This document shows, one piece after another, positions 53,219 to 58,211 of a DNA stretch of 64,000 bases. The translations under genes were made by a program, and so were the position numbers. The stretch covers positions 310,001-374,000 of the forward strand of contig PABP01000014.1 of NCBI GenBank assembly GCA_002699585.1, read 5' to 3'. Under the pieces are notes generated by a model. The model did not search any database, was not told where the DNA came from, and saw only the letters and a list, made by a program, of their open reading frames with translations. The stretch's first letter is position 1. Every line of letters starts with the position of its first letter. The stretch is from Anaerolineaceae bacterium. GTDB lineage: Bacteria > Chloroflexota > Anaerolineae > Aggregatilineales > Phototrophicaceae.

Positions 53219-53656
53219 TCAGTCAGACAGTTCGATGCGCTCTACAGCCAGGACGAGTTCTTCAATGGCGATATCGGTGCCTTTGGCATTCAAGGTGCTT
53301 AGTTCCCAACGAGCAGGCCAGGCCTCAAATAGGTTAAAGCGCGACACTTCTTCGCGATTTTCGTTTAAGAGGAGAATCGACACGGCGCGGCGGTCAACCG
53401 CACCATCAATTATTTGCTGGCGCCACTGGTACAGATCATTGTTGCCAATGTAACCGCGCTTGAGCGTCACATCGCCGTATTTTTGCAGGCCGGGTAGCTT
53501 ACGCACCGCCGCTGAACGATCATTGCCGGAGCGAAACAGCAGCACTTCCGTTTCCGAACTGAGGCCGCTGACGCTGAGGAACGCGCTGGATTCCATCCCG
53601 TCGATTTCCACAATAAAATTAAATTGCCCAATGGGGTCTTGTTCACGACGTGCCAT
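53219..53656 (-). CDS. Phage tail tube-type protein (TIGR02241/gp19 family), orphan
   Basis: The 145-residue protein matches the tube proteins of contractile phage tails and extracellular contractile injection systems. It reads DPIGQFNFIVEIDGMESSAFLSVSGLSSETEV at the start, RKLPGLQKYGDVTLKRGYIGNNDLYQWRQQI in the middle, and WPARWELSTLNAKGTDIAIEELVLAVERIEL at the end. These are the hallmarks of the Afp1/Pvc1/Hcp-like beta-barrel monomer. No sheath, baseplate, spike, ATPase or other tail gene is in the window. GGGAGAG precedes the ATG. It could be a domesticated or displaced component of a system elsewhere in the genome. Confidence 0.88.
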   Translation of the reverse strand: MARREQDPIGQFNFIVEIDGMESSAFLSVSGLSSETEVLLFRSGNDRSAAVRKLPGLQKYGDVTLKRGYIGNNDLYQWRQQIIDGAVDRRAVSILLLNENREEVSRFNLFEAWPARWELSTLNAKGTDIAIEELVLAVERIELSD

Positions 53657-54448: not shown

Positions 54449-54838
54449 ATGGCAAACATGACAACAGTCACATCGCCGACTGAAAGCCATACGAGCAACA
54501 CGCTGGTTGTCTATGGCACACCCGCCTGTCCGATGGTCTATCCGCTGCGGTCGGCGTTGGACAGCACCAAGGTCCCCTATGATTACATCAACATATGGGA
54601 AGATGAGCATGCTCGCCAGCGCGTGCGCGAGATCAACGATGGCAACGAAACCGTGCCGACGCTGGTGTTCCCGGATGGCAGCACCCTGACCGAACCCAGC
54701 ACAGGCGACCTGGACGCCAAGCTCAAGGGGATGGGCTATTCCCTGGGGCTGATGGGGTTCATTCGTGGTAACTTTATCTGGATTGTGACAGGTTCCGTGA
54801 TTTTCTTTGGCATTCTGCGCTTTTTAGAGCTGATCTAA
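54449..54838 (+). CDS. Membrane-anchored glutaredoxin-like protein
   Basis: The 129-residue protein has an ~18-residue polar N-terminal extension, then a glutaredoxin fold. Active-site Cys27 lies in VVYGTPACPMVYPLRSAL (CPMV, one Cys only) and the cis-Pro loop in NETVPTLVFPDGSTLTEPS. A C-terminal hydrophobic helix (FIWIVTGSVIFFGILRFLELI) anchors it. The TVPT and DGSTLTEPS motifs place it near actinobacterial/Chloroflexota mycoredoxin-like glutaredoxins, though those usually have a CxxC. GAGGATGAGG precedes the ATG. It converges on the DUF1152 gene with a four-base overlap. Confidence 0.85.
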   Translation: MANMTTVTSPTESHTSNTLVVYGTPACPMVYPLRSALDSTKVPYDYINIWEDEHARQRVREINDGNETVPTLVFPDGSTLTEPSTGDLDAKLKGMGYSLGLMGFIRGNFIWIVTGSVIFFGILRFLELI

Positions 54839-55854
54839 TAGGGTAAAGGCTTGTTATGACGCGCTTTGCTCATCAGCATGGCGCGTAGCTTGATGGTCTG
54901 GGCATGCGCTTCCTGAATGCTAGCCGTGCCCTCAATGGCCTTACGCAATAAGCTGCGACGTGCGACTGCCTCAGCATCAAAGAACCAGTACAGGCTCATC
55001 AATGGCGAAACGTAGACTTCCAACGGCAGATAGTCATGGTAGAGGTGATAATTGCCAAACGCGCCCAAGGTCGCGCTGACGATACGCATGTTGATCTGGC
55101 TTTTATAGTGTGAAGGCTGTTCCCAGACGTAGCGACAGGCCGCTTCGTATTGCTCATAAACAGGCATCTTGCGGGTAAGCGCACACGAGCCATAAAAGGC
55201 ATCTTCAACGATGAGCGCGGCCATATTGGCCAGGGCGTTATGGTGGCTGACTTCCAGTTCGGAGCCAAAGCCAATGCAGGCCAGTATTTTGGTCGGAATG
55301 TCGAGATCAAAGGTGGCCGCTAGTGAAATGGTATCTTCCAGCAGCGTTCCAGCCCCAGCTTCATCACCGATCATCAGCGAATCCACGCCGCCATCGACCA
55401 GGATGAGCGTATCAATCTGAAGATGGTCAACCAACTGCTGATACAGCTCCATCAGCAAACTCGGACCCACTTTGGCGAACATCCAGATGGTAATGTCTTC
55501 TTCATAGGTTTCTTTAAACCAGCGCGATAGATAGCCTTCTGGGAAGTAACCATGATTGAAATCATAAGGCACACCCGCTTTGGCCCCAGCCAACAACCCA
55601 TCGCGTAGCACCTCGACCTCGCTATAATGGCTGACGATTTCCACAGGTGAAAAGCTATAATTGGCGAGATGCACATTCTTGCCCATGTCCCGCAGCGTGA
55701 AGTAAATCGGTAGGCCACAAAATACATCGAAGCCCCCACCGGCCCCGGCAATCAGAATATTCTGGCTATTTTCCAGCAGATGGTTGATGGGCAAATTCAG
55801 TTGCACGTCTACACCTTTATGACTTAACTGACAAATTTTCTCGGTGACGATCAC
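54835..55854 (-). CDS. DUF1152 protein, coupled to SHMT-like gene
   Basis: The 339-residue protein matches DUF1152. It has the N-terminal nucleotide-binding-like loop NILIAGAGGGFDVFCGLPIYFTLRDMGKNVHLANYSF, the acidic block IDTLILVDGGVDSLMIGDEAGAGTLLEDTIS, and the segment ACIGFGSELEVSHHNALANMA. The G-A-G-G-G-F-D loop suggests phosphate or nucleotide binding. No activity is known for the family. It starts with GTG inside the stop of the SHMT-like gene (GTGA, four-base overlap), so the two are surely co-translated and likely act together. Confidence 0.85.
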   Translation of the reverse strand: MIVTEKICQLSHKGVDVQLNLPINHLLENSQNILIAGAGGGFDVFCGLPIYFTLRDMGKNVHLANYSFSPVEIVSHYSEVEVLRDGLLAGAKAGVPYDFNHGYFPEGYLSRWFKETYEEDITIWMFAKVGPSLLMELYQQLVDHLQIDTLILVDGGVDSLMIGDEAGAGTLLEDTISLAATFDLDIPTKILACIGFGSELEVSHHNALANMAALIVEDAFYGSCALTRKMPVYEQYEAACRYVWEQPSHYKSQINMRIVSATLGAFGNYHLYHDYLPLEVYVSPLMSLYWFFDAEAVARRSLLRKAIEGTASIQEAHAQTIKLRAMLMSKARHNKPLPY

Positions 55855-57179
55855 GCATGGACGTAGCGCATGGTGTCAAAGGGTTGGCGGAAAGCAGCGA
55901 CTTCGGCAGTAATAGCGGCCAGGTCGCTATCAGTCTGAGTCGCACGCAAGATGAAATCAGCCACAGTCGGCATATCGGCCTCGGTCATACCCCAGCGAAC
56001 GACTTCGTTGGTCCCCAGGCGCAGACCATTGACGTCGTCCTCAACAGGCGCAATCGGTAAGCCGATGCCACAGCTCAGGATATTGGCCTGCCGCAGGCGC
56101 TTGGCCCATGTTTGACCGCCGCCATAGTCAGTGGCTTGCAAGGCGAATTGGTGCGACTGTGTATAGGGATGCTGGCTGTTTTGTGTCTGGAAGACGGGCA
56201 AGCCACGTTCTGCCAGTTCCGTCGCCAGGCGCTGGGCTGTACTGACCATCACGCTGGCGTAGTCCTGGCCATAATCGCGCCAATCGAGCAGGGTGATGGC
56301 TAGAGCCGCCGAGTTACCCGCGTCGAAGTTGGCTGTCAGGCCGGGATAAGCAATCGCATCGACTCGCTCGGCGATCTCAGCATCGTGGGTCACCAGCAAG
56401 CCAGCAGCAGGTCCGCCGAGGCTTTTATAGGTGCTCATGGTCATCAGATGCGCGCCCAGCGCCAGCGGATTTTCCCAGGCGTTCCCAGCGATGATGCCCG
56501 ACAGGTGAGCCGCATCGAACAGCACTTTCGCGCCGATGGTATCCGCAATGGCACGGACCTCGGCAACCGGATGCGGGTTCAGGTTTAGGCTACCGCCGAT
56601 GGTAATCAGCCTGGGTTTTGCCTCGTGAGCAAGTGCGTTGAGGGCATCCAGATCGACCGTATACGTGGCGGCATCAATCGGCGCGTGCAGAATGTTGAGG
56701 CCATAGAGGCCAGCGGCCCCGGCACGATGATGCGTTACATGGCCAGCGATAGTCGGCGGCGGCGTGATAATCGTATCCCCCGGTTGGCAGGTGGCCATAA
56801 AAGCGTACAGATTGGCAATCGCCCCCGATGGCACTCGAATTTCGGCATAATCGGCCTGGAAAATTTCACAGGCCAGGCCTGCCGCCAGCATCTCGATGCG
56901 CTCAATGCCTTCCAGGCCCATTTCATATTTATCACCCGGATAACCCAGCGAGGGCCGTCCCAACCCCTGCGACAGCACCGCTTCCGCACGCGGGTTCATA
57001 GCATTGGTGCCAGGGTTGAGATTGATGCAGTCCTGCTCATGAATTTGTCGATTTTCGTCGATACGAGTCAAGATTTCATTATAGATGGCGTCCGACGAGT
57101 GGCTGAGCTGCTGCGCGGTGTAGTCCGCAATCGCATTTTCGATGTCGCTATCGACCCATTGGCGTGATGTGTATCCCAT
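55851..57179 (-). CDS. SHMT-fold PLP enzyme, divergent paralog of glyA
   Basis: The 442-residue protein has the serine hydroxymethyltransferase fold. PLP residues are kept: Lys252 in MSTYKSLGGPAAG, Asp222/His225 in VLFDAAHLSGI, His147 in TIAGHVTHH, and the carboxylate-binding Arg in GLRLGTNEVVRWGM. But the folate-site motif IELIASENYTS of true SHMT is replaced by CINLNPGTNAMNP, so the catalytic Glu that contacts tetrahydrofolate is absent, while the GYPGDKYEMG segment corresponds to GYPGxRYYGG. A folate-independent lyase, aldolase or racemase is more likely than GlyA. AAAGGA precedes the ATG. It overlaps DUF1152 and is divergent from the F420_ligase gene. Confidence 0.85.
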   Translation of the reverse strand: MGYTSRQWVDSDIENAIADYTAQQLSHSSDAIYNEILTRIDENRQIHEQDCINLNPGTNAMNPRAEAVLSQGLGRPSLGYPGDKYEMGLEGIERIEMLAAGLACEIFQADYAEIRVPSGAIANLYAFMATCQPGDTIITPPPTIAGHVTHHRAGAAGLYGLNILHAPIDAATYTVDLDALNALAHEAKPRLITIGGSLNLNPHPVAEVRAIADTIGAKVLFDAAHLSGIIAGNAWENPLALGAHLMTMSTYKSLGGPAAGLLVTHDAEIAERVDAIAYPGLTANFDAGNSAALAITLLDWRDYGQDYASVMVSTAQRLATELAERGLPVFQTQNSQHPYTQSHQFALQATDYGGGQTWAKRLRQANILSCGIGLPIAPVEDDVNGLRLGTNEVVRWGMTEADMPTVADFILRATQTDSDLAAITAEVAAFRQPFDTMRYVHA

Positions 57180-57368
57180 CGCTGTGTGCGTCCTTTGGTA
57201 GATGTGATGCCATGCTCGAAGTAAGTGAATGATAGCTCAAAAACGGGCCTCAGCCAGCAAGAATCAGCACTGTTTGGACACCTATCTACCGTTGGCAAAC
57301 GCCTTATGGTACGATGTCCGCCTAAAGTCCAAAGAGAACCCATCCACAGCCCAGAAAGACATTACCCA

Positions 57369-58211
57369 ATGCCCAATACGCTCAATGTGATCCCGGTGCG
57401 CGCGCCGATACAGCAAACGCCCTTCCCCCTCGTCGATACCATTGCTGATGCCCTGGCGGAGACTGGCCAATCCCTACAAGATGGGGATGTGTTGGCGGTC
57501 AGCAGCAAGTACGTCGCCATCGCGGAAAATCGCATCGTCACGTTGGCAGATGTCCTCCCTGGCGACCAGGCCCATGCGTTGGCCGAGCGCTATAACATGG
57601 ATGCTTATATGGCGCAGTTGGTCATCGATGAAGCCGACCACATCTTCGGCGGCATCCCGATGGGGTATCTACTGACGTGGCGCAGCGGTATTATCGCGCC
57701 CAACGCCGGCATCGACCGCAGCAACATTCCCAATGGGCTAGCCGTACTGCTGCCGGAGCATCCTTATGACAGCGCCCATGATCTGCGCGATGCCTTGTAT
57801 GAGCGTTTCGGCGTCAAGGTGGGCATCATCCTGACTGATAGCTGGCTGGTTCCGGGCCGTTGGGGCACGACTGGCGTGGCGCTGGCTGCTGCCGGGTTCA
57901 GCCCGACACAAGATGAACGCGGCAAAGAAGACCTGTTCGGCAACCCGATGGCCGTCACCGTACGCGGCATCGCAGATTCCCTGAGCATCTGTGCCCAGAC
58001 GGTCATGGGCGAGCGCGACGAAGCCACTCCGCTGGCCATCATTCGCGGCGCAGACGTTCAGATGACCGATGCGCGCATCACGCAGGATGATGTGTCGATC
58101 CCCTGGGAGATGTGCATCTATGTCGAATCCTTAACGCTGGGCCTGCTGCCAGATGGCGCTCCTCGTGAATCGCTGACGGCCAAACTCAGCAAGCGCGATA
58201 AGACAGTCTAG
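57369..58211 (+). CDS. F420_ligase-family (CofE-like) protein, divergent
   Basis: The 280-residue protein belongs to the CofE/F420:gamma-glutamyl ligase family, which adds glutamate to F420-0. Recognisable segments are IPVRAPIQQTPFPLVDTIADAL, the VLAVSSKYVAIAENR strand, AVLLPEHPYDSA, KVGIILTDSW, RGIADSLSICAQTVMGERDEATPLAIIRGADV and the C-terminal TLGLL block. The usual TDSHGRPWRxG block reads TDSWLVPGRWGTTG, a local change near the active site, so the exact substrate is uncertain. Its 189-base upstream gap with the SHMT-like gene contains the divergent promoters. The frame is open to 57225; I use the ATG at 57369. Confidence 0.8.
   Translation: MPNTLNVIPVRAPIQQTPFPLVDTIADALAETGQSLQDGDVLAVSSKYVAIAENRIVTLADVLPGDQAHALAERYNMDAYMAQLVIDEADHIFGGIPMGYLLTWRSGIIAPNAGIDRSNIPNGLAVLLPEHPYDSAHDLRDALYERFGVKVGIILTDSWLVPGRWGTTGVALAAAGFSPTQDERGKEDLFGNPMAVTVRGIADSLSICAQTVMGERDEATPLAIIRGADVQMTDARITQDDVSIPWEMCIYVESLTLGLLPDGAPRESLTAKLSKRDKTV

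Follow-up and report, generated by a model that had tools for sequence, protein, structure and literature searches.

In the 6.7 Mb genome of an Anaerolineaceae bacterium (Chloroflexota, family Phototrophicaceae), a stretch of 64,000 nucleotides of contig PABP01000014.1 (positions 310,001 to 374,000; hereafter, the window) carries a gene for a pyridoxal phosphate (PLP) enzyme of the serine hydroxymethyltransferase (SHMT) fold. Here, I show that the residues of this SHMT-like protein mark it as a member of a distinct and widespread SHMT-fold subfamily, in which leucine takes the place of the catalytic glutamate, and which probably does not perform the SHMT reaction. At about even odds (a probability of roughly 0.5), its members would be folate-independent retro-aldolases, probably acting on an alpha-substituted beta-hydroxy amino acid, a substrate that I infer from the residues at the donor site.

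A conserved active site that has lost the catalytic glutamate

The open reading frame (ORF) of the SHMT-like gene is intact and encodes 442 residues that match PF00464 with 130 bits (cut-off 27). Site numbers below are those of E. coli SHMT, the residue of the window protein being given second. As an earlier note, made from the sequence alone, had described, the alignments display an SHMT-family protein with the PLP lysine (Lys252), Asp222, His225, His147 and the carboxylate arginine (Arg387) all retained. The changes are Ser35 to Gly57, Glu36 to Thr58, Tyr55 to Pro76, Glu57 to Leu78, Tyr65 to Glu86 and His228 to Tyr251, and the ASEN motif reads PGTN. The same note equated the replacement of ASEN with the loss of the catalytic glutamate: ASEN is indeed replaced and its glutamate lost, but the placement of Glu57 in that motif had to be rejected, for the phmmer alignment to a solved SHMT and the alignments with glyA genes put the ASEN glutamate at residue 36. 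The catalytic Glu57 (Glu53 in Thermus, PMC10397204) sits in the YAEG motif, where the window protein has no glutamate but Leu78. A true glyA is present elsewhere in the genome, fused to gcvT, so that its product joins SHMT to an aminomethyltransferase domain (GCV_T). The claim that the SHMT-like protein is unlikely to carry out ordinary folate chemistry is supported.

Scanning genomes with five aligned orthologues as the query returned at least 584 related stretches, of which the best 80 loci (58-66% identity to the window protein) were analysed. Most of their hosts belong to the Alphaproteobacteria (Ruegeria, Roseovarius, Mesorhizobium, Kiloniellaceae and others); the rest comprise three Actinomycetota and some further Proteobacteria, among them Alcaligenaceae and Vibrionaceae. 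Leu at site 57, Glu at 65 and Tyr at 228 are each found in 80/80; site 55 is Pro in 78 (Ala in 2), site 36 is Thr in 76 (Gly in 3, Ser in 1), and site 347 is Ile in 79, counts which hold for this subfamily and not for all SHMT relatives, one scan pattern containing Leu57. Equally fixed, at 80/80 each, are S175 and the SHMT hallmarks shared with the window protein, namely the PLP lysine (K229), D200, H203, H126 and R363. Because Leu57, Glu65, Tyr228 and the PLP-site residues are invariant, the sequences identify a conserved subfamily and not a decayed SHMT copy. What the earlier note saw in one protein is real and extends further than it said, to several fixed changes in a large family.

The same pattern recurs closer to the host. 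Among 400 genomes of the phylum there are four full-length orthologues (41-48% identity) and a partial one (G406, 53%); Thr36, Pro55, Leu57 and Tyr228 occur in 4/4 of the former and Glu65 in 3/4 (Asn in G448), and the partial orthologue agrees at the sites it covers. Cousins of 31-43% identity vary: Glu57 is retained, together with Ala at site 55, in G089 and in the group formed by G256, G387 (second copy) and G067, and G119 and G109 still have Tyr55. A cousin group at loci L067-L071 (L067:8141-9499) was also seen to keep Glu57; its ASEN motif reads APEA, and its site 55 is Ala.

The predicted model, a monomer with a predicted local distance difference test (pLDDT) score of 90.8, has SHMTs as its closest solved folds (4bhd_A, Z 51.0 over 398 residues). 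With SHMT proper (GlyA, EC 2.1.2.1; closest solved enzyme that of Methanocaldococcus jannaschii, 4bhd/4uqv) the protein shares the predicted fold over about 400 residues, the PLP lysine and its partners, and the carboxylate arginine; the subfamily differs from it by Leu for Glu57, Glu for Tyr65, Pro for Tyr55, PGTN or PATN for ASEN, and Tyr for His228. With the curated NCBIfam model for SHMT, NF000586, the window protein (266 bits) and two relatives (297 and 310) stay under the cut-off of 335, and two cousins that keep the glutamate pass it (352 and 358).

Candidate reactions

The reaction that I favour would start from an external aldimine with a beta-hydroxy amino acid, followed by retro-aldol cleavage of the Calpha-Cbeta bond without tetrahydrofolate, which would yield an amino acid and an aldehyde. 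More tentatively, the released amino acid may be larger than glycine, as alanine would be if the substrate were of the alpha-methylserine type, since both donor-specificity sites, 55 and 65, are replaced (by Pro and Glu). Likewise tentatively, Glu86 of the partner subunit might stand in for the lost Glu57/Tyr65 pair at the hydroxyl or the alpha substituent. In Alphaproteobacteria, the gene is probably LysR-controlled and catabolic.

This proposal derives from Leu57, Pro55 and Glu65 as read with the published roles of these sites. The catalytic glutamate (Glu53/75) is reported to act when serine is cleaved with folate and not when allo-threonine is cleaved without it, and rabbit SHMT carrying E75L to release formaldehyde faster in the folate-independent reaction (PMC5958214). 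Which donor is accepted depends on Tyr55 and Tyr65, in whose place alpha-methylserine hydroxymethyltransferases have Thr and His (PMC6411801); with Y55T, SHMT comes to accept D-serine (PMC4761611). Bacteria do meet such substrates, for in the degradation of Tris a methylserine hydroxymethyltransferase acts on 2-hydroxymethylserine (PMC10848231). A bolder version holds that the catalytic carboxylate has been relocated, Glu57 having become Leu and Tyr65, eight residues on in a loop of the partner subunit, having become Glu, and that many marine Alphaproteobacteria possess a reaction, so far undescribed, by which alpha-quaternary amino acids are converted without folate. I regard this as possible but rather doubtful; if true, an SHMT fold with a moved acid/base and an opened donor pocket would exist in nature.

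Several points weigh against the retro-aldolase proposal. Glu53 has also been argued to serve as general base when folate takes no part in the reaction (PMC10397204), in which case either a new base, for which Glu86 is a candidate, or another reaction is needed. The placing of Glu86 in the active site is itself conjectural, the model being a monomer with a poorly modelled loop (low confidence at residues 78-84). Tyr64 is kept in 80/80 relatives, which argues against the folate site being lost altogether and may leave room for the use of folate or methanopterin; its Bacillus equivalent, Tyr60, is named with folate binding in the title of a paper, together with Asn341. As two scan patterns were used, one containing the Leu of site 57, the set of 80 may be enriched for Leu. 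Lastly, 36/80 loci lack a LysR orthologue within the stretch examined, and the neighbouring genes point to no particular substrate.

Alpha-methylserine aldolases, with enzymes from Variovorax, Ralstonia and Bosea, are reportedly the subject of work by Nozaki et al. Such an aldolase is folate-independent in vitro (PMC7918591), and the subfamily may be alpha-methylserine aldolase itself, a comparison made by description and not by sequence. Aldolase and hydroxymethyltransferase alike are relatives or analogues of SHMT with altered donor use; the latter carries Thr60/His70 at sites 55/65 (PMC6411801), where the subfamily has Pro/Glu.

Folate could also be dispensed with by an enzyme resembling the L-threonine transaldolases (ObiH/ObaG, FTase, LipK), which would transfer threonine's glycyl unit to a different aldehyde in a biosynthetic context. 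These share the SHMT fold without folate chemistry, ObiH itself (7k34_B) aligning to the predicted model with a Z of 47.6, and the His-Gln pair reported as their motif (PMC8072733) is invariant in a 31-row alignment. The pair is also present, however, in the methanogen SHMT and the glutamate-keeping cousins, and is missing from the four orthologues of the same phylum; the 156.8 bits obtained with the fluorothreonine transaldolase model TIGR04506 are far under its cut-off of 650. ObiH, compared here by description and not by sequence, keeps Tyr55, which is Pro in the window protein and 78/80 relatives, and has a loop motif (F58/W68/F70) as a feature of its own. Given further that, LysR aside, no neighbour recurs in more than 10 of the 80 loci, hence no recurring biosynthetic cluster, I consider a transaldolase unlikely. 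A literature search combining "serine hydroxymethyltransferase-like", "transaldolase" and "tetrahydrofolate" found no paper.

I give the same low credence to a hydroxymethyltransferase that would depend on folate or methanopterin and act through a rearranged site, for example on alpha-methylserine. The methanogen SHMT is the best match in both sequence and fold, the retained Tyr64 would suit such an enzyme, and alpha-methylserine hydroxymethyltransferases differ from SHMT at sites 55 and 65, too. Yet these are Thr/His in the known transferases and Pro/Glu here, Glu57 is lost in 80/80 whereas the methanogen enzyme keeps the glutamate of YAEG, and site 347, which I take to be that of Bacillus Asn341, is Ile in 79/80.

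It is no more probable that aldol chemistry has been abandoned for another PLP reaction, be it racemisation, transamination or decarboxylation. The joint loss of Glu57, Tyr65 and His228 would fit, as would the view that Glu53 is the general base of folate-dependent and folate-independent cleavage alike (PMC10397204); on the other hand, the SHMT-type residues H126, S175, D200, H203 and R363 are kept in 80/80, and the closest listed folds are SHMTs and ObiH.

Gene context and probable origin

A LysR orthologue (grouped by single linkage, with identity of at least 42%) is present in 44/80 loci, in 40 of them divergent and adjacent: 38 with a gap of less than 400 bp, and two more with overlong ORF calls (L136, L198). 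Of the remaining four, three, all in Mesorhizobium, lie downstream of the SHMT-like gene, and one precedes it on the same strand. Among the other neighbour families, clustered from ORF lists, the most frequent are an ATP-binding cassette (ABC) transporter ATPase (10 of 80), a response regulator (7), an enoyl-CoA hydratase and an inositol monophosphatase (6 each). Farther afield, a relative of 37% identity on a Mesorhizobium plasmid lies beside an amino-acid ABC transporter and a GntR regulator, the cousin in L067 begins about 14 bp after a GntR/FCD gene with a glutamine-synthetase-like gene near, and one orthologue of the same phylum adjoins an amino-acid permease. Such neighbours fit, weakly, with amino-acid catabolism. 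No paper linking SHMT, LysR, Alphaproteobacteria, aldolase and fitness together was found in the literature search. In G387, a gene for an S-adenosylmethionine (SAM) hydroxide adenosyltransferase (L121:7294-8187, minus strand) starts about 4 bp after the stop codon of the SHMT-like gene; fluorinases are relatives of that family.

The tree was computed from 90 of 95 rows (left out were the partial G406, G109, G119, a glyA of G210 and the host's own glyA), with long rows for EcGlyA, G490, G288, G089 and G448. The window protein groups with the 80 mainly proteobacterial proteins on a branch supported at 100/100, with the orthologues of its own phylum outside; its exact sister is unsure (94/20). 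Across 100 relatives from the genus, family and order, the best other SHMT-like match is that of G089 (43%), and 60 other genomes of the family have matches at the level of glyA only, none with an E-value below about 1e-34. As the protein thus stands among proteobacterial ones in the tree while its own family has glyA-level matches only, the window copy was probably acquired horizontally. The content of guanine plus cytosine is 58.5% in the SHMT-like gene, 51.0% in the adjoining gene for a DUF1152 protein and 53.9% in the window. Outside the subfamily, G089 and the G256/G387/G067 group, both with Glu57 and with Ala at site 55, branch off in steps, though on long branches; tentatively, this suggests a change at the donor site first and the loss of the glutamate afterwards.

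The locus and its neighbours

The genes around the SHMT-like gene are listed in Table 1. The DUF1152 gene directly downstream matches PF06626 with 75 bits (Pfam cut-off 27), and the divergent gene is, as previously supposed, like F420_ligase (206 bits). No match to a sigma-70-like promoter was found in the intergenic region of the divergent pair.

Table 1. Features at the SHMT-like locus and the host's own glyA (window positions unless stated)
Feature	Position	Strand	Remark
SHMT-like gene, SHMT-fold PLP enzyme, 442 aa	55851..57179	-	PF00464 match
DUF1152 protein	54835..55806	-	downstream neighbour of SHMT-like, PF06626 match
CofE-like (F420_ligase) paralogue, 280 aa	57369..58211	+	divergent to SHMT-like
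Intergenic region of the SHMT-like/CofE-like divergent pair	57180..57368		
Own glyA-GCV_T fusion	L001:1-2781; own contig C23, about 524333-527113	-	Pfam, own copy only

The earlier note had DUF1152 start inside the stop codon of the SHMT-like gene, the two being fused in translation. The 4-base GTG/TGA overlap does exist, and the listed ORF starts there, at 55854; homologues, however, begin at the position of a second GTG 16 codons downstream, with AAAGG in front, so that the true start is likely the GTG at 55806, 44 bp past the SHMT-like stop, and a translational fusion through overlapping codons was rejected. For the CofE-like gene, Met49 of the listed ORF (57369) is the most likely start, giving 280 residues, since strong matches begin at residues 37-53 and the ORF of the congener has 280 residues. 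As to glyA, many glyA-level matches among the relatives sit in open frames of about 1,000 residues or more, and the fusion with GCV_T may be common in the order.

The three genes form no conserved unit. ORF lists had missed genes overlapping longer frames (SHMT-like in 6/80 loci, and one DUF1152), so that pairing was counted by tblastn within the stretches examined, the neighbour-cluster counts above remaining ORF-list based, with some loss. By this measure, DUF1152 is absent from 80/80 of the closest SHMT-like loci, from 6/6 loci of orthologues or cousins in the phylum and from 13/13 loci of more distant cousins; conversely, none of 18 other DUF1152 places (12 tblastn loci, one in G006, one on a Deinococcus plasmid and four on viral contigs) has an SHMT-like gene, the only GlyA-like match at 6 of the 12 being of 27-28% identity and kilobases off. 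For the DUF1152 plasmid records, neighbours were inspected in 1 of 7. With 0/99 and 0/18, the supposed conserved pair of SHMT-like and DUF1152 was rejected, and their adjacency is probably due to chance.

DUF1152 occurs in 13/400 genomes of the phylum, that of the window included. In the same family, G006 has two neighbouring copies (L228, L230, contig C10) of about 70% and 50% identity with no SHMT-like gene there, and G015 has one of 47-51% identity, both genomes having SHMT matches at the glyA level only; as they carry DUF1152 without the SHMT-like gene, the former seems the older in the family. The CofE-like gene is found in 58/61 genomes of the family, 54 of which have a second CofE match (it was not seen in G020, G021 and G037, 71-85% complete), and was rejected as a partner of the SHMT-like gene, which has no match beyond the glyA level in the 60 other genomes of the family. 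In the only congener examined, the CofE-like gene (79% identity) and other neighbours are kept, nothing at the corresponding place matches the SHMT-like gene, and only the last 40 codons of DUF1152 are left beside CofE-like (L215:10652-10774), a remnant that reads as the scar of a deletion reaching into DUF1152. The pathway proposed earlier, in which the three neighbours would join in the synthesis of an unusual amino acid or of a cofactor linked to one, has in its favour that they adjoin in this one genome. In view of the random pairing with DUF1152, which the note itself had named as a refutation, the near-universal CofE-like gene and the congener, it is highly improbable.

Of the two neighbours themselves, DUF1152 gave a model (pLDDT 69) whose best alignments are with deacetylases of the PIG-L/LmbE type (Z 9.1-11.3), a weak match at 6-12% sequence identity for which Foldseek gave low-TM hits only, the Z values coming from a second comparison. 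HPDD-type motifs are the metal motif of those deacetylases. Neither HPDD nor HxDD occurs in either DUF1152 alignment (9 and 5 rows), all rows of which have GGGFD instead; DUF1152 may be related to that fold in a remodelled form. A single-sequence query found no relatives on viral contigs, but an alignment query found four IMG/VR contigs (L221-L224, 33-42% identity). No paper treating DUF1152 by name was found in the literature search. The CofE-like protein scores 188 bits with TIGR01916 (cut-off 180.65; the genome's other copy, 259.8) and fails NF009809 (170 versus 274); it is a second CofE paralogue, with a TDSWLVPGRWG block. Elsewhere in the window lie a T4 gp19-type tail tube gene (53219-53656, minus strand), with the tube families of contractile injection systems below cut-off, and a glutaredoxin-family gene (54449-54838, plus strand), nearest to mycoredoxin though below its cut-off, whose protein ends in a hydrophobic stretch that looks like a membrane anchor.

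To sum up, genes of this subfamily match SHMT models and invite the label of serine hydroxymethyltransferase, a reaction that this subfamily (at least 584 related stretches) probably does not perform. Their natural Leu at site 57 is that of the engineered rabbit E75L, and they are altered at Tyr55, the site engineered for alpha-quaternary products; nature thus offers in this subfamily a test of what the SHMT glutamate does, a matter in dispute, and perhaps enzymes with which to make alpha-branched amino acids.

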